64,000 nucleotides of DNA, from NCBI RefSeq assembly GCF_001614315.2, contig NZ_LVEG02000005.1:62001-126000 (forward strand), written 5' to 3'. The translations under genes and the position numbers were made by a program. Shown here piece by piece: positions 3 to 13,954 of this stretch; position 1 is the stretch's first letter, and every line of letters begins with the position of its first letter. Origin of the DNA: Halofilum ochraceum (lineage in GTDB: Bacteria > Pseudomonadota > Gammaproteobacteria > XJ16 > Halofilaceae). Below the pieces are notes generated by a model. It saw nothing but the letters and a program-made list of their open reading frames with translations, was not told where the DNA came from and did no database searches.

Positions 3-3000
3 AGCGACCGTTTCCTGCAGCCCGTTCGGGAGGCCGGTTACGACGCGGTCATAACGCCGGAAGGTACCGAGGTCGCCGTACTCGACCAGTCCGTGATCGA
101 GGAACAGGACCGCACCCCCGCCAATCTGCAGGGGAGTCAGCAGCAGTCGCAGTCCGAGCTGGTCGACGACGAATCCGAGCTGCAGGACCGCACCCGCGCC
201 AACATGGCCGGCGAGTCGCCGGAACGCGCCACGCTCATTGCGCTGCGCGATGCGCTGGAAGCCGCGACCGACACCATGAACGAGGGCGGGATGCCCGGCG
301 AGTTCGCCCGCGAGGCGGACGATCTGGCCGAGCGCATCACCAATGCGACCGACAACGACCGCGATCTGACGCAACTGCAGCAGGACGCGGCGGCGTCGAT
401 CCGTGACTGGCTCGACCGGGGCGGCATGGACGATGATCTCGCCAACTACCTGCGGGGCATCGAGCAGGCGATCCGCGCGAGCGCCGAGCTGCCGGGAAGC
501 CAGCAGTCCCGATCCGAGCAGCTCGCCACGGACATTGCGGCCATGCTCCCGAACCGGGTTGGTCGCGCGGCCACCGGCATGAAGGCGATCGGCTCGACCG
601 AGCTGTTCGAAATGGCCAACCGCACCTACGGCGGCACCCGGGCCGAGGGCGCCTACACCAGCCGGGACGCCTACGACGCGCTGGAAACGGGCGTGAACCT
701 GTACCTGCGCGGCCGTGATGATCTCGCGCCCGATGGCAACGCCGAGGCCGCGGCGGAGAATATCCGCCAGATTGACGCGATCATCCAGGCGCTGCCGTCG
801 CAGACCCGGCGCAGCGAGGGGCAGACGCAGCTCCAGCAGTTCTCGACCCCGCCGACGCACGCGCACGCGGCCGCATGGGTGGCAAATCTCGCCGAGCGGG
901 ACGTGGTGCTGGAACCCTCGGCCGGCACCGGGAGTCTGATCGCTCCGGCGCAGGCCGCCGACGCGCGGGTAATCGCCAATGAGTACGACCCCGGCCGCGC
1001 CGAGCTGCTTGAACGCTTCAACACGACGGTCCACCGCGAGGACGCGCAGCACATCAACGCGACGCTGCCGCGCGATATTCAGCCGTCCGTCGTGCTCATG
1101 AATCCCCCGTTTTCGTCGAACCTCAAGCGCCCGGGCAAGAAGGATCTGCAGGTTGGCGCCCGCCACGTCGAGGAGGCCATGCGCCGCCTGCAGCCCGGCG
1201 GGCGGCTGGTGGCGATTCTCGGCCGGGGGATGCGCCCGGATGCCGCCTCGCAGCAGGTACAGCGTTTCTGGCAGCGGATCGGCGAGCAGTACAACGTGCG
1301 CGCGAATGTCGGCATCAGCGGGCAGGCGTACAAGCAATACGGGACCACGTTCGACAACCGCATCGTGGTCATGGACAACACCGCGCCGGACGGCCAGAAT
1401 CCAGTAACAGGCGACGTCGAGAGCGTCGACGAGCTGCCGGCGCTCCTGGAGGAGGTCCGCAATGACCGGCCTGAAAGCACTGAACCGCAAGCCGGTGCAC
1501 GAAGCGGCGGCGCGCGCCTACCGCAAGCTGACCGGGGAGCCGCCCAGGGCGGTGGATCTGGCCGGACTGGCGCTGGCGGAGTGGGCACTGGATCAGCCCC
1601 CGGCCGTTCACGGACTCAGCGAGGCGAACGCGGAGATTCTTCTGGACGAGGTCAGGGACCGGATGATGCACGCGACGCCGCAGGAACAGCACGAGTTTCT
1701 GACGAGCGCGGCACCGGACGACCCGAAGGGACGGACGATACCGGAGCCGTTTCGCCTGCACCGGATGGAACCGATCGGAGTGGTGCGCGAGCTGGTGGAC
1801 GTACTGCATCACAAGCTGGCCGCGATGGCGACGGGGACGTATCCGATGTAGACGCGGTCACGGTCGAGTCGGCGGATTCGACGAGCACCGAAGCCAACCA
1901 GGAAACCGAGCTTACCGACGACACGTTCGAGAGCTACCGCCCCCGGGCGACGTTCAGCTCCGCCAAAGAGCACCCCGCGAAGCTGTCCGAGTCCGCGGCG
2001 ATGGCGTCGGTCAAGGCGCCGAAGATCGAGCGGCAGCCGCGCATCCCCTCGGAGATCGTCGAGTCCGGCCGCCTGTCGAATATCCAGCTCGAAGCGGTCG
2101 CGCTGGCCGGCCAGTCCCATGACCAGCAGCTCGCCGACGGCACCCGCCGGGGCTTCTATATCGGTGACGGTACCGGCGTCGGCAAGGGCGCCGAGATCGC
2201 CGGCATCATCCTCGACAACTTCAAGCGCGGCCGGCAGAAGGCCGTGTGGGTGTCGGAGAATCAGAAGCTCTACAAGGATGCCCAGCGCGACGCGGATTGG
2301 GCCGGCCTCGGCAAGGATCAGATTTTCTCCCAGGGCGACGTGAAGGGCCCGATCAAGGGCGACAAGGGCGTCGCGTTCACCACCTACCACCTGCTTCGCT
2401 CCAAGGGGCAGGACTCGCGCGACGCCGACGGCAACATCGTCAAGGGCGAGCGCCGGATCGACCAGCTCATTGAATGGCTGGGCGAGGACTTCGATGGCGT
2501 GATCGCCTTCGACGAGTCGCACAACATGGCCAACGGCCTCGACGAGGAAGGCGAGCGCGGTGTGCAGAAGGCGTCGCAGGCCGCACTCGCCGGGATCGAG
2601 CTGCAGGACCGGCTCCCCGACGCGCGCGTGGTGTACGTCTCCGCGACCGGCGCCACGGAGGTCCGCAATCTGGCCTACGCCAAGCGCCTCGGCCTGTGGG
2701 GGCAGGACACCGCGTTCCCCGACGTCAACACGTTCGTCGAGTCGATCGACAACGGCGGCGTGGCGGCAATGGAGATCGTTGCCAAGGATCTCAAATCCCT
2801 GGGCCTCTATACCTCGCGCTCGCTGTCCTACGACGACGTCAGCTACGGCGGGCTCGTCCACGAGCTGACCGAGGAGCAGAACGACGCCTACCGGACGCTG
2901 GCGCGCGCGTGGCAGAACGTCATGCAGCGCGTGGACGCGGCGCTGGCCGACACGGAGAACAACGGCGAGGGCGCGGCCGACGGGCAATCCAAGGCGCGGG

Positions 3001-6000
3001 CCCGCTCCGCGTTTTGGGGCGCGCACCAGCGGTTCTTCAATCAGGTCATTACGGCCATGAAGGGCCCGTCGATCATCTCGGACGTGGAGCAGCAGCTCGA
3101 AAACGGCCACTCCGCCGTGCTGCAGCTCGTGTCCACGAACGAGGCGACGCAGGAGCGCCGGCTGGCGCAGGCCGAGAAGGAGGGGCTGTCGCTCGACGAC
3201 GTCGACGTGACGCCGCTCGATATTCTCATGCAGTACCTCTACAACAGCTTCCCGACCACCAAGTACGAGAAAACGATCGACGAAAACGGCAACGAGAAAA
3301 GCGTTCCCGTAACCGACTCGAACGGCAACCCGGTCGAGGACCCCGGCAAGGTCGCGGAGCGCGATTCGCTCATGGAGGAAATGGGCAGTCTCGACGTGCC
3401 GGAAGGCATCCTGGAACAGCTCATTGACCACTTCGGCACCGACGCGGTCGCGGAAGTCACCGGCCGCTCCCGGCGACTGGTCCGGGGCAAGAAGGGCCGC
3501 GAGATCCAGAAGCGGACCAAGAAGAACGTCAACGCCGAGATCGACGAGTTCAACAAGGGCAAGCGCCGCATCCTGATCTTCTCCGACGCGGGCGGTACCG
3601 GTGCGAGCTACCACGCCGACAACCGCATCGAGAACCGGCAGAAGCGCTACCACTACCTCGTCCAGCCGGGGTGGCGGGCCGACAAGGCGGTGCAGGGCTT
3701 CGGCCGCACGCACCGCTCGAATCAGGCCGTGGCGCCGCACTACGTCCTCGCCTCGACCAACCTGCAGGCGGAAAAGCGCTTCCTGTCGTCGATCGCCCGC
3801 CGGCTGGATCAGCTCGGCGCGCTGACCAAGGGCCAGCGCGACGCGGCCGGCGGTGGCGTGGTGAGCAGCGAGGCCAGTCTCGAGAACCGCTTTGCGAGCA
3901 ACGCGGTCCTCACGATGATCTTCGACGCGCAGCAGGGTAACGCCGGCATCGTGAACCGCCCCGTCCTCGAAAACGAGATGGGCTTCCACCTGTGGGACGA
4001 GGACGGCAAGCTGCAGGAATCGAAACTGCCGAGCGTGCCGCAGTTCCTCAACCGCCTCCTGTCGCTGGAGCCGGAGCGCATGGACGAGGTGTTCCACGAG
4101 TTCGACCGCCGGTTCAAGGCGAATATCGAATACGCCCGCCAGCAGGGCCAGCTCGACACCGGCATGGAAACCCTGCGCGCGGATTCGATCCAGAAGGTCT
4201 ACGAGCAGGAATCGCAGCTCGGCGACCGTCCGGGCGCCCTGCGCTACGTGGAGCTGGAAACCCGGCGCGAGGCGAAGCTCACGCACTACGAGGATCTGCC
4301 GTTCGACCGTGACGGCCTGTTCTTCGGCCGCAACAAGAGCAGCGGCTACCTGTACGCGTTCGTGCCGACCGCGACCACGACCGATCCCAAGACCGGCGCG
4401 CTGGTGAAGCAGTACCGGCGGATCGGGCCGACCGGCGCGGACTATCTGCCGCAGGCCAAGTACCGCGAGAAATACGAAACCGCGAGCGATTCGGACGCGG
4501 AGCTGCGGGCCGCCTGGCAGCAGCGCGTCGACGCGGCCCCGAATCAGGTCAAGAGTTCCCGGCATCTGATCGTCGGCGCCCTGTTGCCGGTGTGGGATCG
4601 CCTGCCGACCGACAACCAGCGCGTGCTCCGGGTCCAGACGGACGACGGCGAGCGCCTCCTCGGCCGTGAGCTGCCCGCGAAACAGGTCCGCGAAACCCTG
4701 TCGCAGCTCGGTTTCGACCGGCCGGCACAGGACCTTTCCCCGGCGGCCGTGCGCGAGGCGATCATGGATCGCGGGGCGCCCGTGAAGCTCACCAACGGCT
4801 GGCAGCTCGAACGCCGCCGGGTGGACAACGAGCAGCGCATGGAAGTGAAGGGCCCGCGGGGCTCCGAAGTGCAGCAGCTCAAGCAGCTCGGCGCCACCAC
4901 CGAAATCATCGCCCACAAGACGCGGGTGTTCATCCCCACGGCGAAGGCCGAAACGGTCCTCGGCGAGCTGTTCCAGTCGAAGCCGCCGCAGGAAATCGTC
5001 GAGGAGCAGTCGGCCGACGACGAGGCGGACGGGGCGCGCTTCTCCCGCAGCGGTGAACGGCCGGCGAACCCGCAGGGCAGCGAGGCCGGCATCAACGTGG
5101 ACGAGGCCCGCAGCGCCGCCGCGCGCCTCATGCGCGACTGGAAGGAGCGGCCCGCCACCTACGTCCGCCAGTCCGAGAACGAGCTGCCGGCCGATCTGCG
5201 CCAGGAAATCGACAGTGCCGGCGCCCGGGGCGAGGTCCGCGGCGTTTTCTGGAAGGGGCGCGTCTACCTCGTCGCCGACAACATCCCCTCGCAGCGCGCA
5301 CTCGAGGAAACGGTCCTCCATGAAGTGATCGGCCACTACGGCCTGCGCCGCGCGATCGGCAAGGACATCAAGCCGCTGCTTCGCCAGGTCTGGATGCAGT
5401 ACGGCCGCTCCGGCCTCGCCGACATTGCCCAGCGGCAGGGACTCGACCTGTCGAAGCCGGACCATCAGCTCATCGCGGCCGAGGAAAAGCTCGCCGAAAT
5501 GGCCGAGTCCGGCGCGAAGCCGAACCTGTTGCAGCGCCTCGCCGCGAAGATCCGCGACTGGCTCCGGCGGATGGGCTTCTCGCTGCGCCTCACCGATTCC
5601 GAGCTGTTGGCGCTCGTGGCACGGGCGCGTGACTTCGTCCAGCGCGGGCGGCGCGTGAGCGGTCAGGACAGCGTCCTCGACGAGGCCCGGGCCAAGTACA
5701 GCCGCGAATACGGCGAGGCCGGGGCCGGCGCCGACGCGTCGATGTTCTCGCGTCATTCCCGGTCGGGCAACGACGAAAAACCGCGCATGTACGCCCGGGC
5801 CCCCGACGGCTCGCTGGCCGGCGTGGCCGAGTACAGCCAGGGCAAGTGGCATGTATGGCTCAAGCGCGACGCCAGCGGCCGGCTGTTCGACGACGGGCCG
5901 CGCACCCACACCGAGGAAACGATCGGGGCGGCCCGCAAGCGGTTCACGGGGGCCGGTCTGGAAGTGACCGTGTCCATGCCGAGGGTCGAGCGTCAGAAAA

Positions 6001-8666
6001 GCGAACCGTTGTTCTCCGACGGCTTCGATATGCCCGCGGCCGGGACCTTCGACTACATTCGCTACAACCTGCAGGACAAGTACGTCGACCTTCTCAAGGC
6101 GCAGGGCGCGATCGAGCAGTACACGGGCGCGGAGATACCGGACGATCTGAACGCCTACATGAAGGAGTCGCTGTACCACGGCCGCGCGGATGATCGCGTC
6201 AACCGCTTCCGCGAGGAGCACGTCGATCCGCTGGTCGAGTCCATGCGGGACAACGGCGTGACGATGGACGAGCTGGACGAGTACCTGTACGCCCGCCACG
6301 CCCCCGAGCGCAATGCCGCCATGTCGGAGATCAACCCCGAGCTGCAGGAGGGCGAGGGCTCCGGCATGACCGATGCCGAGGCCGCGGCCGTCATGGAGCG
6401 CATCCGCGAGGAAGGCCGCATGGAAGTGATGGAGTCGCTCGCCGCGCGGGTGGATGCCATCGTCGAAATGCAGCGCGGCATCCTTGTGTTCGAGGGGCTG
6501 GAGCGGGCCGAAACGGTGCAGGCCTGGCGGAACAAGTACGACCACTACGTGCCGCTGCGCGGCTTTGCCGAGGTATCGGAGGACGCGCAGGCGATGGCGT
6601 CGTCGCAGGACGCGCGCGGCAAGGGCTTCAATCTGGCCGGCGGCCGGCAGAAGTCCGCGATGGGCCGTCGCTCCCGCTCCGACAGCCCGCTCACGCACGT
6701 CCTCGCCAACTACGAAGCGGCGGCCGTGCGGGCCGAGAAGGCCCACGTCGGGCGCGCGCTCATGCGGCTGATCCAGGCGAACCCGAACCCGCGGCTGTGG
6801 GAGGTCGACAAGGTCGAAATCGAGCGCCGGATCAACCCGCAGACGGGCCTCGTTGAATCGCGTGTGAAGCCGTCCTGGACGAACGACGACAACGAGCTCG
6901 TGGTCAAGGTGGCCGGCGAGGATCACCGGATCACGCTCCACGGCGACCAGGGCCTGCGGATCGCCTCCGCGATGAAGAACCTCGGCGCGGATCAGATCAA
7001 CGTGATCGTGCGGGCCGGGGCATGGCTCAACCGCTGGCTGTCGTGGACCCGCACGGGCGCCAACCCCGAGTTCATCATCTCCAACTTCATGCGCGACCTG
7101 CAGACGGCCGGCATCAACCTGGCCGGCACCAAGGCCGACGATATGAAGTGGCGGATACTCAAAGACGTCCGCCAGGCCCGCAAGGGCATCCGCGACGAGC
7201 AGAAGGGCGGCAACAGCGAATGGGCGAAGCGCTACCGCGAGTTCAAGCGCATGGGCGCCAAGACGGGCTGGGTGGACACCTACGCCTCGACCGATGATGC
7301 GAAGAAGGCGCTGGAGAAGCGGATCAAGCGGGCCCGGCGCAGCGGCGCCCACCCCGGGGAAATGCTGCAGGCCGCGCTCGATTTCACCGAGAACGTGAAT
7401 ATCTCGGTCGAGAACGCTGTCCGCCTGTCCGCGTTCGAGAACGCGCGGCGCAGTGGTGTCAGCGAGCAGCAGGCCGCGTCGATCGCCAAGGAGCTGACGG
7501 TCAACTTCAACCGGAAAGGCCACTACGGCACGGTGATGAACGCGGCCTATCTGTTCTACAACGCCGGCCTGCAGGGAACGACGCGGATGCTCCAGGCGCT
7601 CGGCTCCAAAAAGGTGCGGAAGATCGCCTATTCGATCGTCGGCGTATCGGCCGCTGTGGCGATGGGCAACCGCATTTGGGGCGGCGAGGACGAGGACGGC
7701 ATCCCGTACTACGACAAGCTGCCCGACTGGCTCAAGAGCCGCTACTTCGTGGTCATGCTGCCCGGCACCGAAGGGCAGTACGTCAGCGTCCCGCTGCCCT
7801 ACGGCTATAACATCATGCATGTGATGGGGCAGGAGTTCGCCGCGGCGACGGAGCAGGCCCTGGGGATGCGGAACGACTACGACGCATCCGACAGTTCGCT
7901 TCGCGTCATGGCCACGTCGTTCGAGTCGTTCAACCCGCTCGGCTCCGAGGCGACGCCGGCACAGTTCATCACGCCCACGGTGCTCGATCCGGCCGCGCAG
8001 GTATGGGAGAACCGCGACTGGTCCGGCCGGCGGATCTACCCGACGGGCAATCCGTTCGATCGGTCGCCGGACCCGGACAGCCACCAGTCGTGGTCGACGA
8101 CGCCGGACCTGTTCAAGACGATCGCCCAGGGCATGAACGATGCCACGGGCGGAACGGCCGTGACGCCGGGCTGGTTCGACGTTCACCCCGAATCGCTGGA
8201 GCGCTTCTACGAGTTCGGCGTCGGCGGCCTCGGCACCTTCATCAGCGACAGTTTCGTGAATATCCCGACCAAGCTGGCGAAGGGGCAGGACATTCAGACC
8301 TATGAGATCCCGTTCCTGAGCAAGCTCTACGGCGAGTCCGGTTTCCGCACGACACGCGACGGCTACTATGACGCGCTGCGGCGGATCGGCGAGGCGGAGG
8401 ACGAGCTGGAAGGCGCCCGCAAGCGCAAGACCGATCGCACGGTCGGGGAAGTGGAGCGCGAGTACCGGCCGGAGCTGCAGATCCGCGGGATGGCCAAGAG
8501 CGCGGAGAAGAAGCTGAAAAGCCTCAATGACCGGATCGAGAATATCCGCAAGTCGAAGGCATACGACTCACGCGCCAAGAGCAAGCGGATCGAGAACCTG
8601 CGCGAGCGCAAGGAGGACGTCATGCTCGAGTTCAGCCGCGCGTACCGGCAGGCGCAGCAGTATTAG
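3..8666 (+). CDS. Giant polyvalent protein of a phage or conjugative element (methyltransferase + Strawberry-notch-type helicase), 5' partial
   Basis: The frame is open from base 3, so the gene starts upstream; the GTG at 93 is only the first in-window start. At least 2887 residues are visible. Domains by base position: an N6-adenine methyltransferase at about 840-1380 (EPSAGTG at about 910, NPPF at 1101-1112); a Gly/Arg/Asp-rich stretch at about 1440-1950; a Strawberry-notch-like helicase at about 2070-3900 (GDGTGVGKG at 2164-2190, DESH near 2511, QGFGRTHRSNQ near 3690); an HEVIGH zincin-like motif at 5319-5336; a C-terminal region after about 7045 (NPEFIISNFMRDL) like large-polyvalent-protein modules, ending in a charged coiled coil. 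Such proteins are known to be carried by phages and conjugative elements and are thought to protect or establish incoming DNA. The role here is inferred from domains. Confidence 0.85.
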   Translation, partial: SDRFLQPVREAGYDAVITPEGTEVAVLDQSVIEEQDRTPANLQGSQQQSQSELVDDESELQDRTRANMAGESPERATLIALRDALEAATDTMNEGGMPGEFAREADDLAERITNATDNDRDLTQLQQDAAASIRDWLDRGGMDDDLANYLRGIEQAIRASAELPGSQQSRSEQLATDIAAMLPNRVGRAATGMKAIGSTELFEMANRTYGGTRAEGAYTSRDAYDALETGVNLYLRGRDDLAPDGNAEAAAENIRQIDAIIQALPSQTRRSEGQTQLQQFSTPPTHAHAAAWVANLAERDVVLEPSAGTGSLIAPAQAADARVIANEYDPGRAELLERFNTTVHREDAQHINATLPRDIQPSVVLMNPPFSSNLKRPGKKDLQVGARHVEEAMRRLQPGGRLVAILGRGMRPDAASQQVQRFWQRIGEQYNVRANVGISGQAYKQYGTTFDNRIVVMDNTAPDGQNPVTGDVESVDELPALLEEVRNDRPESTEPQAGARSGGARLPQADRGAAQGGGSGRTGAGGVGTGSAPGRSRTQRGERGDSSGRGQGPDDARDAAGTARVSDERGTGRPEGTDDTGAVSPAPDGTDRSGARAGGRTASQAGRDGDGDVSDVDAVTVESADSTSTEANQETELTDDTFESYRPRATFSSAKEHPAKLSESAAMASVKAPKIERQPRIPSEIVESGRLSNIQLEAVALAGQSHDQQLADGTRRGFYIGDGTGVGKGAEIAGIILDNFKRGRQKAVWVSENQKLYKDAQRDADWAGLGKDQIFSQGDVKGPIKGDKGVAFTTYHLLRSKGQDSRDADGNIVKGERRIDQLIEWLGEDFDGVIAFDESHNMANGLDEEGERGVQKASQAALAGIELQDRLPDARVVYVSATGATEVRNLAYAKRLGLWGQDTAFPDVNTFVESIDNGGVAAMEIVAKDLKSLGLYTSRSLSYDDVSYGGLVHELTEEQNDAYRTLARAWQNVMQRVDAALADTENNGEGAADGQSKARARSAFWGAHQRFFNQVITAMKGPSIISDVEQQLENGHSAVLQLVSTNEATQERRLAQAEKEGLSLDDVDVTPLDILMQYLYNSFPTTKYEKTIDENGNEKSVPVTDSNGNPVEDPGKVAERDSLMEEMGSLDVPEGILEQLIDHFGTDAVAEVTGRSRRLVRGKKGREIQKRTKKNVNAEIDEFNKGKRRILIFSDAGGTGASYHADNRIENRQKRYHYLVQPGWRADKAVQGFGRTHRSNQAVAPHYVLASTNLQAEKRFLSSIARRLDQLGALTKGQRDAAGGGVVSSEASLENRFASNAVLTMIFDAQQGNAGIVNRPVLENEMGFHLWDEDGKLQESKLPSVPQFLNRLLSLEPERMDEVFHEFDRRFKANIEYARQQGQLDTGMETLRADSIQKVYEQESQLGDRPGALRYVELETRREAKLTHYEDLPFDRDGLFFGRNKSSGYLYAFVPTATTTDPKTGALVKQYRRIGPTGADYLPQAKYREKYETASDSDAELRAAWQQRVDAAPNQVKSSRHLIVGALLPVWDRLPTDNQRVLRVQTDDGERLLGRELPAKQVRETLSQLGFDRPAQDLSPAAVREAIMDRGAPVKLTNGWQLERRRVDNEQRMEVKGPRGSEVQQLKQLGATTEIIAHKTRVFIPTAKAETVLGELFQSKPPQEIVEEQSADDEADGARFSRSGERPANPQGSEAGINVDEARSAAARLMRDWKERPATYVRQSENELPADLRQEIDSAGARGEVRGVFWKGRVYLVADNIPSQRALEETVLHEVIGHYGLRRAIGKDIKPLLRQVWMQYGRSGLADIAQRQGLDLSKPDHQLIAAEEKLAEMAESGAKPNLLQRLAAKIRDWLRRMGFSLRLTDSELLALVARARDFVQRGRRVSGQDSVLDEARAKYSREYGEAGAGADASMFSRHSRSGNDEKPRMYARAPDGSLAGVAEYSQGKWHVWLKRDASGRLFDDGPRTHTEETIGAARKRFTGAGLEVTVSMPRVERQKSEPLFSDGFDMPAAGTFDYIRYNLQDKYVDLLKAQGAIEQYTGAEIPDDLNAYMKESLYHGRADDRVNRFREEHVDPLVESMRDNGVTMDELDEYLYARHAPERNAAMSEINPELQEGEGSGMTDAEAAAVMERIREEGRMEVMESLAARVDAIVEMQRGILVFEGLERAETVQAWRNKYDHYVPLRGFAEVSEDAQAMASSQDARGKGFNLAGGRQKSAMGRRSRSDSPLTHVLANYEAAAVRAEKAHVGRALMRLIQANPNPRLWEVDKVEIERRINPQTGLVESRVKPSWTNDDNELVVKVAGEDHRITLHGDQGLRIASAMKNLGADQINVIVRAGAWLNRWLSWTRTGANPEFIISNFMRDLQTAGINLAGTKADDMKWRILKDVRQARKGIRDEQKGGNSEWAKRYREFKRMGAKTGWVDTYASTDDAKKALEKRIKRARRSGAHPGEMLQAALDFTENVNISVENAVRLSAFENARRSGVSEQQAASIAKELTVNFNRKGHYGTVMNAAYLFYNAGLQGTTRMLQALGSKKVRKIAYSIVGVSAAVAMGNRIWGGEDEDGIPYYDKLPDWLKSRYFVVMLPGTEGQYVSVPLPYGYNIMHVMGQEFAAATEQALGMRNDYDASDSSLRVMATSFESFNPLGSEATPAQFITPTVLDPAAQVWENRDWSGRRIYPTGNPFDRSPDPDSHQSWSTTPDLFKTIAQGMNDATGGTAVTPGWFDVHPESLERFYEFGVGGLGTFISDSFVNIPTKLAKGQDIQTYEIPFLSKLYGESGFRTTRDGYYDALRRIGEAEDELEGARKRKTDRTVGEVEREYRPELQIRGMAKSAEKKLKSLNDRIENIRKSKAYDSRAKSKRIENLRERKEDVMLEFSRAYRQAQQY
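1462..1851 (+). CDS. Nested gene in a second frame inside the polyvalent gene; unknown function
   Basis: This 129-residue frame starts at an ATG placed 5 bases after GGAGGAGGT (1448-1456), one of the best Shine-Dalgarno sequences in the window. I counted third codon positions: 108 of 130 codons end in G or C here, against 58 of 130 for the enclosing frame over the same bases. A nearby stretch of the enclosing gene (2160-2279) has 36 of 40. The enclosing frame is low-complexity Gly/Arg/Asp/Ser here, while this product looks globular and helical (EAAARAYRKLTGEPP, NAEILLDEVRDRM, GVVRELVDVLHHKL). It is probably a real small gene of the element, over which the two flanking domains became fused in another frame. 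I do not recognise the family. Confidence 0.6.
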   Translation: MTGLKALNRKPVHEAAARAYRKLTGEPPRAVDLAGLALAEWALDQPPAVHGLSEANAEILLDEVRDRMMHATPQEQHEFLTSAAPDDPKGRTIPEPFRLHRMEPIGVVRELVDVLHHKLAAMATGTYPM

Positions 8667-8980
8667 CGGTTGATCTTCCGGCAGATCCAGATGGCGGGCG
8701 GGCCGGCGACCATCACGAAGGTGTAGAGCACGCCGGGGATGCCGGACAGCAGGAACAGCAGCACGAGCGGGGCGAGCCGGGACGCCGCCTCGCTGCCGAT
8801 CAGGGCGTCAACGGGACTGGTTCCCATGCCCTGCAGGCCGCGCGCGTAGTCGTAGAGGTAGTCGGCCACGATGAACAGGTCGGCGAGCGTGGCCAGCGCG
8901 GCGAGAATCACGAGCGGGCCGTACAGCAGGCACCGCTCGTGCGTGCTGGCCCACCGCCAGATTCGCGCGATCTCAACCAC
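8663..8980 (-). CDS. Small membrane protein, hypothetical
   Basis: A 105-residue protein with two long hydrophobic stretches (about residues 18-45 and 68-98) and a basic C-terminus (CRKINR), so probably an inner-membrane protein with two or three spans. It starts at GTG 8980, which overlaps the stop of the upstream small membrane gene (GTGGTTGA), so the two are translationally coupled. Its stop codon overlaps the end of the convergent polyvalent gene by 4 bases. It lies between the polyvalent gene and tRNA-Arg, so it most likely belongs to the integrated element. A holin or superinfection role is possible, but nothing in the sequence shows it. Confidence 0.6.
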   Translation of the reverse strand: MVEIARIWRWASTHERCLLYGPLVILAALATLADLFIVADYLYDYARGLQGMGTSPVDALIGSEAASRLAPLVLLFLLSGIPGVLYTFVMVAGPPAIWICRKINR

Positions 8981-9230
8981 GCACCAGCCCCTTCATGCGG
9001 GATGATTCCGGGCGGACCTTCCGGCCGAGCGCGCGCAGCCCCCATCCGACCCCCGCAGTCACCGCACCGAACACGACCATCATCAGCCCCGGGCCGGGAT
9101 TGCCCGCGTCGACCACGAAGCCGCCGGGAACCGTGGCCGCGTAGGCGCCGACGAACGCGTAGGCCCCGCCGACCAGCAGCAGCGTCCAGGCTAGCAATCC
9201 GATCAGGGCGGCGACGATCTTTCGTGGCAT
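8973..9230 (-). CDS. Small membrane protein, hypothetical
   Basis: An 85-residue protein starting MPRKIVAAL. ATG 9230 is chosen over the in-frame start at 9287 because GGAGAG sits about 8 bases before it and the extension is low-quality basic sequence. There are two hydrophobic segments: roughly residues 5-30 (IGLLAWTLLLVGGAYAFVGAY) and 45-65 (GPGLMMVVFGAVTAGVGWGL). The tail is basic. The stop overlaps the start of the next small membrane gene. Transcription runs away from tRNA-Arg into the element. No family is recognised. Confidence 0.6.
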   Translation of the reverse strand: MPRKIVAALIGLLAWTLLLVGGAYAFVGAYAATVPGGFVVDAGNPGPGLMMVVFGAVTAGVGWGLRALGRKVRPESSRMKGLVRG

Positions 9231-9335
9231 CGGCACTCTCCGTAAGGCTTTATGCGAGGATAGGTGACAGCGCCATCGCCATGCCACCCTCGGTACCCCT
9301 CACGCGCGCATCGAACGACCGCTGAATGAGTAATC

Positions 9336-9420: not shown

Positions 9421-9497
9421 TGGCGCGCCCGGGAGGATTCGAACCCCCGACCTCATGGTTCGTAGCCATGCGCTCTATCCAACTGAGCTACGGGCGC
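9421..9497 (-). tRNA. tRNA-Arg (anticodon ACG)
   Basis: The minus strand folds as a full cloverleaf. The acceptor stem is GCGCCCG with CGGGCGC, followed by discriminator G and an encoded CCA at 9423-9421. The D arm is GCTCAGTTGGATAGAGC. The anticodon stem is CATGG/CCATG around loop CTACGAA, giving anticodon ACG. The T arm contains GGTTCGAATCC. The gene has its own promoter just upstream. Its 3' end faces the mobile-element genes, the usual orientation when a tRNA 3' end serves as the integration site. Confidence 0.95.
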
Positions 9498-9551: not shown

Positions 9552-10655
9552 TTATTTCAGATTGGCATCGGTGGGATGGCCGTCGCGGCGGTTTTCCGGG
9601 GAGAGAAAACGCAGGAGCGGATGGCGGTGGCCATCGATGGCATTGGCGAGGAGCTGGGCGGCCAGGGGTGTCGTCAGCAGGCCGTGGGCGCCGTGGCCGG
9701 CGGTGATCCAGAGATTGTCGGCGAGGCGGCCGACGAGGGGGATCCGGTTGGGTGTGGTGGCGCGGAAGCCGACGAACCGGTCGATCGCTTCGGGGATTTC
9801 GGCGAGCCCGAGACACCGCTGAGCGAATGCGAGGTTGGTCTGGTCGTCTTCGGCGCGTGGCGCCGGGTCGGTGTCGCCGCGTTGGAGAGTGGCGCCGACC
9901 CAATGGGTTCCACCGATTGCGGGCGTGATGTAACCGCCACCCGATATCGGTACCCGCAAGCCGGCGCTCGCGGCGGTCGCGCGGAACGCGGTGGCCTGCC
10001 CGCGGGCGGGGAGCAGCCAGCGGCGGCTCTCTGGCCACAGCCGCGTGCAGGCGGTGCCGGCCGCTATGATCGCGGTTGTGGCCGTGGCAAGTGGCTCGCC
10101 GGCAGCGCTCTGCGCGGTCCAGCCATCCTCGTGCGCCACCAGCCGTTCGACACGCCCGCCACGGGTATGGATCGAGCCGGCATGCAGTGACCGCAACGCG
10201 TTGGCCAGCCGGTCGGGCTGGATGCACGCGCCGCGGCGATGCAGCACGCCATCGGAGGGTGGTTCGATACCGATCGCCGCCCGGGCGTCGGCCGGTGTGA
10301 CGTGGCGCGCGTCCGGGTCATCGGGTGGGACGCGCCGGTGTCTGGCCCGATCGCGTTCGTTGCCCGGCAGCAGCAGGGTGCCGCGCGCGGTCCGGCCACA
10401 GTCGAATCCGGCCCGCTCGAGGTGGGCGAGCCAGCTCTCGGTTACGTTCAGGCCGCGGCGGCGCAGGCGGGTCAGTGGATCGGTCGCGCCGCCGATGGTG
10501 GCCGCCATGACGGCGGCGGGGATGTCCGAGGCGCGGTCGGCGTCATCGTCGGCGATCAGGGTGACGCGCCAGCCGCGCCGGGCGAGTACGGCGGCCGCGG
10601 CGCTGCCGGCCAGGCCGCCGCCGATGATCAGGGCGGTCCGGGGCCGCCGGCTCAC
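9552..10655 (-). CDS. Stand-alone MnmC C-terminal-type FAD-dependent oxidoreductase
   Basis: A 367-residue flavoprotein of the DAO fold. The N-terminus has the dinucleotide-binding motif [12 protein letters not shown]. Several blocks match the oxidoreductase half of MnmC as I remember it: [33 protein letters not shown] followed by EDDQ, the [12 protein letters not shown] block, and [15 protein letters not shown]. In MnmC this half converts cmnm5(s2)U34 to nm5(s2)U34 in tRNA. The methyltransferase half is absent here, so this is a single-domain MnmC(o)-like protein; a glycine-oxidase-like amine oxidase is the alternative. The GTG start at 10655 overlaps the ispG stop (GTGA), so it is coupled to ispG. 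Confidence 0.7.
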
Positions 10656-11896
10656 GCCGGGGTGTCGCTGTGCCCGTAATTGCGCTCGACGTAGTCCTCG
10701 ACAATCGCCTCGAACTCTTCGGCGATATGGTCGCCCTTGAGCGTGACCGTCTTTTCGCCGTCCACGTACACGGGCGCCACCGGGCGCTCCCCGGTGCCGG
10801 GGAGGCTGATGCCGATATGGGCGTTGCGGCTTTCGCCGGGACCATTGACCACGCAGCCCATGACAGCGACACGCATCTCCTCGACCCCGGGATAGACATC
10901 CTTCCATTCGGGCATCTTGCGGCGCAGATGGCCCTGGATGTCTTCCGCGAGCTGCTGGAAGTAGGTGCTGGTGGTGCGCCCGCAGCCGGGGCAGGCGATG
11001 ACGCTCGGGACGAACGCCCGCAAGCCGAGGCTCTGCAGGATGTGCTGGGCCACCTCGACCTCGCGGGTGCGCGGGCCGCCGGGTTCCGGCGTGAGGGAGA
11101 TGCGGATGGTGTCGCCGATGCCCTCCTGCAGGAGCACGGACAGCGCCGCCGTCGATGCGACGATCCCCTTGCTGCCGGTGCCGGCCTCGGTCAGGCCCAG
11201 GTGCAGGGCCCATTCACCGCGCGCGGCGAGATCGCGATAGACCGCGATCAGGTCCTGGACGCCGCTCATCTTGCAGGACAGCACGATCCGGTGCCGGGGC
11301 AGGCCCAGTTCCTCGGCGCGCAGGGCGCTGCCGATGGCGGATTCGACGACGGCCTCGCGGTTGATCAGCGTCAGATCGCGCGGTTCGTCACGCCGCTGGT
11401 TTTCGTCGAGCAGGCGCGCCATCAGGTCCTGGTCGAGACTGCCCCAGTTGACCCCGATGCGCACGGGCTTGTCGTAGTGACAGGCGAACTCGATCATCTG
11501 CGCGAACTGCTCGTCGCGGCGCTTGCCCTTGCCGACGTTGCCCGGATTGATCCGGAACTTGGACAGCGCCTCCGCGCAGGCCGGGTGGTTCGACAGCAGT
11601 TTGTGTCCGTTGAAATGGAAATCGCCGACCAACGGGGTGCGGCATCCGGCCGCGTCGAGGCGTTCACGGATATGCGGTACCGCCGCCGCGGCGGGGTCAC
11701 TGTTGACCGTGATCCGCACGATCTCGGAGCCCGCTTCGGCCAGTTCGAGCACCTGTTGGACGGTCGCTTCGATGTCGGCCGTATCGGTATTGGTCATCGA
11801 CTGCACGACGACCGGGTGGTCGCCGCCAACCGTGACGTCGCCGACCGGGACGCCCACGGTGGGGTGTCTCCGGATGGGGTTGAGGGGGTCGCTCAT
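10652..11896 (-). CDS. ispG: 4-hydroxy-3-methylbut-2-en-1-yl diphosphate synthase
   Basis: IspG (GcpE), 414 residues, converts methylerythritol cyclodiphosphate to HMBPP in the MEP isoprenoid pathway, using a [4Fe-4S] cluster and flavodoxin. Visible features are the N-terminal TIM-barrel opening ([18 protein letters not shown]), the GVNWGSLD block, the cluster motif CPGCGRTT in the C-terminal half, and [11 protein letters not shown]. The length is slightly above the usual ~370 of E. coli. The start has GGAGG just upstream. It is divergent from hrcA, and its stop overlaps the start of the MnmC(o)-like gene. Confidence 0.95.
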
Positions 11897-13229: not shown

Positions 13230-13862
13230 ATGTCCAACGAGCAGTCCGCGGAACAGCGGGAGACGGAGCGGGACGCCCGCGAAGAGACCCGGGAGCAGGG
13301 TGAGGGCGAAACCGACGCCCCGGACGCCCCCGAGGAGACGACCACCGGGGAGCAGGAGACGGAATCCGCCGCCGCGAGCGATGACCCGCAAGCCGAAATC
13401 GAGCGCCTGCGCGCCGAGCTTGAGCAGGCCGAGGCGCGCGCGGACGAGAACTGGCAACGCGTGCTGCGCACGGAAGCGGAGAAAGAGAATGTCCGCAAAC
13501 GGGCGCAGAAAGACGCCGACACCGCGCGCAAGCAGGCGGTCGAGAAAATGGCCAACGAACTGCTGGGTGTTCGTGACAGCCTCGAACTCGGGGTCGATGC
13601 CGCCCAGCAGGACGAGGCCGATATCGCCAAGGTGCGCGAGGGCACCGAACTGACCCTGCGCATGCTCGGTCAGGCCATGGAGAAGTTCGACATCGTCGAG
13701 ATCAATCCCCTCGGTGAGAAGTTCGATCCGGATTACCACCAGGCGATGTCGATGCAGGAAGTCGAAGGCTACGAGAGCAACACCGTGTACCAGGTGATGC
13801 AGAAGGGTTATCGCCTCGAAGATCGGCTGCTCCGCCCCGCATTGGTGATGGTCGCCAAATAG
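13230..13862 (+). CDS. grpE: Nucleotide exchange factor GrpE
   Basis: GrpE, 210 residues, releases ADP from DnaK in the cytoplasmic Hsp70 cycle. The N-terminal ~55 residues are strongly acidic and disordered (Glu/Asp/Thr-rich). The long coiled coil follows (EIERLRAELEQAEARADENWQR), then the dimerisation helices and the C-terminal beta domain (GEKFDPDYHQAMSM, VYQVMQKGYRLEDRLLRPALV). The start is preceded by GGAGG. The unusually acidic tail fits a halophilic host. It has its own sigma-32 promoter and lies directly before dnaK. Confidence 0.95.
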   Translation: MSNEQSAEQRETERDAREETREQGEGETDAPDAPEETTTGEQETESAAASDDPQAEIERLRAELEQAEARADENWQRVLRTEAEKENVRKRAQKDADTARKQAVEKMANELLGVRDSLELGVDAAQQDEADIAKVREGTELTLRMLGQAMEKFDIVEINPLGEKFDPDYHQAMSMQEVEGYESNTVYQVMQKGYRLEDRLLRPALVMVAK

Positions 13863-13866
13863 ACCG

Positions 13867-13894
13867 CTTGAAATGGGGCCAGCCGACCCCAAGT
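13867..13894 (+). promoter_or_regulatory. Sigma-32 (RpoH) promoter for dnaK
   Basis: CTTGAAA (13867-13873), a 13-base spacer and CCCCAAGT (13887-13894) fit the sigma-32 consensus, with the same spacing as the grpE promoter. It begins 4 bases after the grpE stop, and the dnaK start follows about 60 bases later. The TGGGG at 13874 can pair with CCCCA at 13887, so a small hairpin overlaps the promoter. Confidence 0.82.
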
Positions 13895-13954
13895 TCGGTG
13901 ACAGACGGCGCAGCGCCGTAAACAGAATTTCGCAGAGCTGGAGGAAGCAACATC

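Follow-up and report, generated by a model that had tools for sequence, protein, structure and literature searches.

The giant gene and its prophage setting

The window, that is, the whole 64,000-nucleotide stretch of DNA analysed here, opens inside a giant gene on the plus strand. The initial annotation had described a frame open for more than 8.6 kb; the frame is indeed open, but its true length is larger, as the whole gene comprises 14,781 nt (4,926 codons without a stop) and starts at C5:55886, about 6.1 kb upstream of the window. The following features were located (positions in the window):

3..8666, plus strand: enclosing giant polyvalent-protein gene, part inside the window (open frame)
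813..1457, plus strand: DNA methyltransferase domain of the enclosing protein (weak Pfam MTS match, PHROG methyltransferase matches, alignment with relatives)
1450..1456, plus strand: Shine-Dalgarno sequence AGGAGGT of the nested gene (sequence; motif kept across relatives)
1458..1910, plus strand: low-complexity Gly/Arg/Glu/Thr-rich linker, overprinted by the nested gene (translation, composition)
1462..1851, plus strand: nested overprinted gene, 129 aa, in the +1 frame relative to the enclosing gene (same-frame homologues, selection, AlphaFold2)
1968..4169, plus strand: Strawberry-notch-type helicase, AAA_34 and Helicase_C_4 (Pfam E = 9.6e-108 and 1.4e-78)
7710..8318, plus strand: LPD38, a phage polyvalent-protein module (Pfam E = 2.5e-35)
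8663..8980, minus strand: small gene without a family match, the first of two after the giant gene (gene call; synteny with BcepIL02 gp71)
8973..9287, minus strand: second small gene (gene call; synteny with BcepIL02 gp72)
9421..9497, minus strand: tRNA-Arg (acg), the likely attachment site bounding the prophage (ARAGORN)

The name "polyvalent protein" had been rightly given to the host gene product, which carries LPD38, inorganic pyrophosphatase and methyltransferase/helicase modules. The methyltransferase corresponds to residues 271-485 of the part of the giant protein encoded in the window; its Pfam MTS match lies below the gathering score, and the assignment is supported by PHROGs. Fusion of this domain to an SF2 helicase makes up a DarB-like dyad (Pfam, PHROGs). 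Upstream of the window, the giant protein shows an inorganic pyrophosphatase match plus a GGDEF match.

The giant gene sits in a phage virion-morphogenesis module, preceded by genes for a terminase, a portal, a major head protein, an internal virion protein, a tail fibre and small virion proteins, in the same gene order as in BcepIL02. In this Bcep22-like podovirus, the DarB-like gene is likewise followed by two small minus-strand genes. A DarB-like protein is present in the virion of JC1 (PMC9144972). By analogy with JC1 gp69 and P1 DarB, the enclosing protein may be present in the virion and ejected.

A nested reading frame with its own start signal

The linker contains an open reading frame (ORF) of 129 codons at 1462-1851, which begins with ATG, lies +1 relative to the frame open from 3 to 8666, and is present as the initial annotation had described it. 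The codon counts given there (83% G/C at third positions against 45% in the enclosing frame, and about 90% nearby) were exact: over 1462-1851, the nested frame had a G/C content at third positions (GC3) of 0.829, compared to 0.450 for the enclosing frame, while enclosing-frame values on the two sides of the overlap were 0.874 and 0.910. Within the 64-kb window, the enclosing-frame GC3 minima were all located at 1383-1593, compared to a median of 0.907. Translation of the enclosing frame also bore out the low complexity previously ascribed to its product at the overlap, in the form of the Gly/Arg/Glu/Thr-rich linker.

The Shine-Dalgarno (SD) sequence, formerly described as near-perfect, is in fact perfect. 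AGGAGGT at 1450-1456 is a full match placed 5 nt upstream of the nested ATG, and the same nucleotides double as codons for part of the enclosing peptide LLEEVRNDR. Among the sense-strand out-of-frame ORFs of at least 60 aa in the 14,781-nt gene, only the nested ORF is preceded by an SD run of at least 5. Openness alone is weak evidence at the window locus because the gene is so GC-rich: when the enclosing codons were synonymously reshuffled at this locus alone, the +1 frame stayed open in 71% of trials.

A second, shallower GC3 dip (0.66-0.71) was observed in the giant gene from about 3,263 to 2,780 nt upstream of window base 1. It has no good SD-led ORF and lies near the GGDEF match. Within the phage polyvalent protein, the GGDEF diguanylate cyclase match was found at residues 892-958 (E = 1.4e-12; L003).

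Conservation and distribution of the nested gene

Relatives were collected by the helicase alone, so that the nested ORF played no part in their selection. An ORF in the same relative frame, within the methyltransferase-helicase interval, was present in all 95 phage-type loci first collected, a count that includes near relatives and some partial metagenomic contigs and that reduces to 75 non-redundant loci (nested identity under 80%). In nearly all of them, the nested start falls within an enclosing peptide of the LLEGIRNDR form and is preceded by an SD sequence. The family consensus reads N..PLNQ.AK..L....PDP..LY.LQL..WGL. A profile of the family matched 120 loci at E < 1e-3, including loci outside the profile build and some contigs in duplicate; all 120 matches were in the +1 frame and none in the other frames. 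When 398 genomes of the phylum were searched by profile, the window was re-found, together with one unrelated genome that shows the same nested arrangement.

Homologues of the nested product thus occur throughout the phage clade, and the absence of homologues that had been named as grounds for refuting the gene does not hold. The confirmation proposed at the same time, namely homologues encoded by stand-alone genes, was not obtained, all matches in the searched genomes and records being nested.

Conjugative-plasmid and alphaproteobacterial versions of the methyltransferase-helicase protein have a shorter linker and lack the nested gene. In the helicase tree, the plasmid forms without it fall on one side of a branch with a support of 100, and the gene is present in 77 of the 80 phage rows, the exceptions being L120, L141 and the borderline case L086. 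Since a few phages (L120, L141/L143) do without it, the nested gene is dispensable or replaceable in some of them.

Mean column identity in alignments of the nested protein was 18-30%, and the nested ORFs of five loci (L010, L014, L064, L066 and L102) were missed by the profile. The latter suggests fast evolution, which would also fit an anti-defence role. Distances between nested proteins correlated with those between methyltransferases (r = 0.45) and between helicases (r = 0.37) about as the latter two did with each other (0.42), and none of 2,000 permutations reached these values. By these sequence comparisons, the nested gene travels with its host gene.

Two further arrangements were recorded. 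On a metagenomic contig (L012), an atpC-like host gene and a tRNA-Arg (acg) at 4440-4516 directly precede the nested gene (4645-5016), and a methyltransferase is absent from the upstream sequence. A tRNA-Arg (acg) is likewise found at the end of the window prophage. The contig is either chimeric or shows an attachment site inside the giant gene. In the giant gene of Bacteroides phage BS-TP4, an 80-aa +1 ORF preceded by an SD run of at least 4 directly follows the methyltransferase (L162, 3812-4051); this arrangement, here in a cultured phage, may be related to that of the window.

Selection acts on both frames

Same-length windows elsewhere in the same genes were fully open in the +1 frame in 174 of 8,031 cases, compared to 75 of 75 non-redundant loci for the nested ORF of the linker. 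We regard this comparative evidence, drawn from sequence, as decisive for the nested ORF. Relatives that are AT-rich retain the ORF though their +2 frame is full of stops. An SD run of at least 5 precedes 47 of the 75 nested starts and 134 of 5,823 control ATGs of that frame, a contrast that is somewhat inflated because the nested starts were picked partly by their SD.

In alignable pairs, mismatches in the overlap were distributed over enclosing codon positions 1, 2 and 3 as 0.284, 0.199 and 0.171, whereas both flanks showed the normal pattern (0.149, 0.090 and 0.347; 0.159, 0.096 and 0.358). As enclosing position 1 is the nested third position, the peak in the overlap is what a gene in the nested frame would produce. 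In line with this, in eight pairs that share no members, changes that are synonymous in the enclosing frame and nonsynonymous in the nested frame occurred at 0.186, compared to 0.400 for the reverse class and a synonymous rate of 0.473 in the flanks (all raw proportions, uncorrected for multiple hits). These values indicate that the nested protein is constrained while the linker residues are nearly free. Purifying selection in the overlap thus falls mainly on the nested frame, the opposite of the selection confined to the enclosing frame that had been named as a possible refutation.

The enclosing frame was nevertheless free of stops in 75 of 75 loci, where 2.0 would be expected when the synonymous codons of the nested proteins are reshuffled; therefore, both frames appear to be read. 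The initial annotation had left a choice between translation of both frames and a fusion of two genes across a third, and its first half is supported by this result; the second is considered below as a matter of origin. Both frames of one DNA are thus kept by selection. On these sequence data, the nested gene is almost certainly real and provided with its own initiation, and conservation of the SD and ATG suggests that both products are made in the cell. Entry by a programmed frameshift was also considered and is disfavoured, as 16 of the 75 loci have an in-frame stop one codon ahead of the nested start.

The nested product

AlphaFold2 modelled the nested product of the window with a pLDDT of 89.5 and a pTM of 0.84 (50-sequence alignment), and that of locus L083 with values of 81.9 and 0.78. 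Both models predict a compact all-helical protein. Over the 75 loci, the enclosing reading of the same DNA contains 18.7% Gly and 21% hydrophobic residues. The nested products are mostly acidic (median pI 4.97, 83% below 6), the pI in the window being 6.1.

The searches used did not link the nested family to any entry of Pfam, PHROGs, NCBIfam or PADLOC. Single-sequence searches with the nested product found no family, no plasmid match and no viral contig, and its only phage match, to a virion RNA polymerase, was insignificant (E = 0.09). Among 26 members, one matched DUF7160 weakly (E = 0.0028) and one gave a weak match to a tail assembly chaperone family (E = 0.065). Fold searches of the libraries used gave no match at E <= 0.001 and no convincing structural relative; the best VIA-align Z values, 3.0 and 3.5, are uninformative for helical bundles. 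Neither fold nor sequence thus yielded a match that names a function.

Further overprinted families in cultured phages

Two other families of +1 ORFs were found in low-complexity linkers of DarB-like giant proteins of cultured phages. Members of family 2 (120-131 aa, MYQVP..WN..A) overprint a linker that precedes the methyltransferase and are encoded by Serratia phage Parlo, Klebsiella phage ZX1, Pseudomonas phage Skulduggery, Ruegeria phage 45A6 and Vibrio phages 1.232.O and D274. Those of family 3 (107-112 aa) occur in Burkholderia phages BcepIL02, BcepMigl, JC1, DC1 and CSP3. Nested ORFs of the two families were located as follows:

L163, 608-994: family 2
L164, 593-979: family 2
L165, 605-991: family 2
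L167, 626-985: family 2
L168, 623-1015: family 2
L170 (BcepIL02), 11296-11616: family 3
L171 (BcepMigl), 13628-13948: family 3
L173 (JC1), 4181-4516: family 3

The selection signature of family 2 was the same as that of the nested family of the window (family 1), with nested-nonsynonymous changes at 0.17-0.26 and nested-synonymous changes at 0.51-0.57; profiles of the two families showed no similarity. In family 3, GC3 was 0.87-0.92 in the nested frame against 0.43-0.44 in the enclosing one, and BcepIL02 and BcepMigl carry a perfect AGGAGGT. Between JC1 and BcepIL02, mismatches peaked at enclosing position 1 in the overlap (0.219) and at position 3 in the flanks (0.220), though the two classes of change differed modestly (0.249 vs. 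0.157). Family 3 has no evident resemblance to families 1 and 2 and appears to be unrelated to them, as judged by sequence appearance. In the record tables viewed for the hosts of families 2 and 3, the giant CDS was the sole annotation at the locus.

The JC1 giant gene has another +1 ORF behind a GGAGG (L173, 2507-2692; 62 aa), whose GC3 is 0.81, compared to 0.45 for the enclosing frame. In the BcepIL02 giant gene, GC3 also falls to 0.54-0.57 at about 10381-10740 (L170), a second such stretch that the ORF found there does not account for.

Interdomain linkers of giant virion-delivered phage proteins may be a recurrent nursery for overprinted genes, in which at least three unrelated, conserved +1 helper families of independent origin supply the small partners that P1 encodes separately and that had been missing in these phages. 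We advance this idea tentatively, at somewhat less than even odds.

A proposed helper of the giant protein and its alternatives

We propose that the podovirus-like prophage produces a single long late mRNA, which is translated in two frames. Ribosomes coming from the upstream start would synthesize the 4,926-aa virion-type polyvalent protein, with the overlap as a flexible methyltransferase-helicase linker, and others would start at the internal AGGAGGT-ATG and produce a separate 129-aa helical protein. Because separate initiation spares ribosomes the passage through thousands of codons, the small protein would be more abundant than the giant one. The small protein may then act as a dedicated helper that keeps the giant protein soluble or inactive, or that loads it into the capsid. 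Taken as a whole, dual coding with a helper role is the best explanation of the data, and we give it a probability of about 0.45.

In P1, DarB is the last to be loaded into the capsid; Ulx "aids DarB localization", and its addition is promoted by DdrB (PMC9024508). The authors who described JC1 noted that homologues of these helpers had not been identified in Bcep22-like phages (PMC9144972). The specific suggestion that the nested protein assists the virion antirestriction protein encoded with it, as Ulx/DdrB do in P1, is plausible although the odds are slightly against it. It is based on the obligate shared location, joint inheritance, confinement to phage forms and the P1 precedent; among possible roles, that of a helper seems the most likely because the gene is always inside the dyad, is inherited with it and is absent from the unpackaged plasmid versions.

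One alternative concerns the origin of the arrangement and leaves today's mechanism as in the explanation above: a methyltransferase gene, a small gene and a helicase gene would have been fused by read-through, the linker being the younger reading. We consider this history conceivable, with roughly one chance in three. Native codon usage in the nested frame and a predicted folded product, next to a disordered and nearly unconstrained enclosing reading, are consistent with it. However, neither a stand-alone small gene nor a split arrangement was found in the genomes and records searched, and the locus in which a tRNA precedes the nested gene without a methyltransferase (L012) is a single metagenomic contig. 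Further, codon usage is no guide to the order of events, because the bias of a linker can be imposed by either frame, depending on which is constrained.

It is rather unlikely that the nested product, although real and translated, acts independently of the giant protein, for instance as a small acidic anti-defence protein encoded at a convenient protected site. Its mostly acidic composition and fast evolution (column identity 18-30%) agree with such a role, and polyvalent proteins are themselves anti-host weapons (PMC5512222). However, an independent gene should sometimes move, and this one was never seen outside the dyad in the genomes searched; in addition, the pI of the window's own product is 6.1, and no PADLOC, Pfam or PHROG family was matched.

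A homing or selfish insertion carrying an out-of-frame gene, in the style of the ShiLan domain, would follow the same logic of a stop-free in-frame insertion that hides a gene in a phage methylase (PMC11855218). This is very improbable: the gene is near-universal in the clade rather than disjunct and its distances follow those of the host gene, the predicted fold is all-helical, and no endonuclease family was matched among 26 members, though a divergent domain could be missed. We rejected a homing element on the basis of distribution and co-inheritance with the host gene. The least probable reading is that there is no gene, and that a GC-rich low-complexity linker merely lacks stops in the +1 frame, with codon bias as a by-product of composition, which would suit the result of synonymous reshuffling at the window alone but conflicts with the AT-rich relatives that keep the ORF despite +2 stops, and with the homologous sequence, SD, start site, selection and confidently predicted fold.

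Significance

The claim that an annotation reporting only the giant protein misses a gene is supported, as the nested gene is conserved and no searched database annotates it. Gene finders suppress genes nested in longer ones, which explains how a family of about 130 residues came to have no Pfam, PHROG or NCBIfam model that the searches could detect. This family spans a broad phage clade of about 100 related phages, with hosts from Pseudomonadota to Bacillota by contig titles, and a whole class of phage proteins appears to have been missed so far. It may supply the missing helpers of virion antirestriction proteins in such phages, a question that is directly testable since families 2 and 3 occur in cultured phages. 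With one frame nearly free in sequence but kept open and the other under selection, the locus also offers a clean natural case for the tolerance of dual coding, where a disordered linker needs little beyond the absence of stops.

Comparison with known systems

In lambda-type Rz/Rz1 pairs, a small phage gene lies wholly within another in a different frame, and both are translated. The products are spanins, i.e., lysis proteins, and Rz1 is a lipoprotein. The nested family has no relation to Rz/Rz1 in sequence or context. Embedded Rz/Rz1 spanin genes have also been named for JC1 (PMC9144972).

Overlapping genes, including those hidden in phage methylases such as ShiLan, were already known (PMC11855218); what is new, by the searches used and the open-access literature, is the protein family. 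As in ShiLan, a gene is hidden in another frame of a stop-free in-frame stretch of a phage methyltransferase gene, and the enclosing reading is poorly structured while the hidden one is well structured. However, ShiLan is a mobile homing endonuclease of disjunct distribution with a GTG start, for which leaderless initiation has been discussed, whereas the nested family is non-mobile, near-universal in its clade, predicted to be all-helical and provided with an ATG and a strong SD. In addition, it lies between domains, while ShiLan lies inside the methylase core.

The enclosing protein belongs to the polyvalent class with a methylase-helicase dyad surveyed by Iyer et al. in 2017 (PMC5512222). 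There, LPD38 is described as phage-type and Strawberry-notch versions as occurring "in a few instances"; a text search of this survey found no report of a nested gene.

The P1 Dar system (PMC9024508) shares with the window a giant methyltransferase-helicase protein of the virion type and, in P1, this protein has partners for its addition to the capsid. The helicase of the window is of the Strawberry-notch type, unlike that of P1 DarB. One of the +1 ORFs of at least 60 aa in P1 darB is 76 aa long and has an SD run of 5. Ulx and DdrB are encoded by separate annotated genes in P1, whereas the helper candidate of the window is nested, and we propose its likeness to Ulx as a functional analogy.
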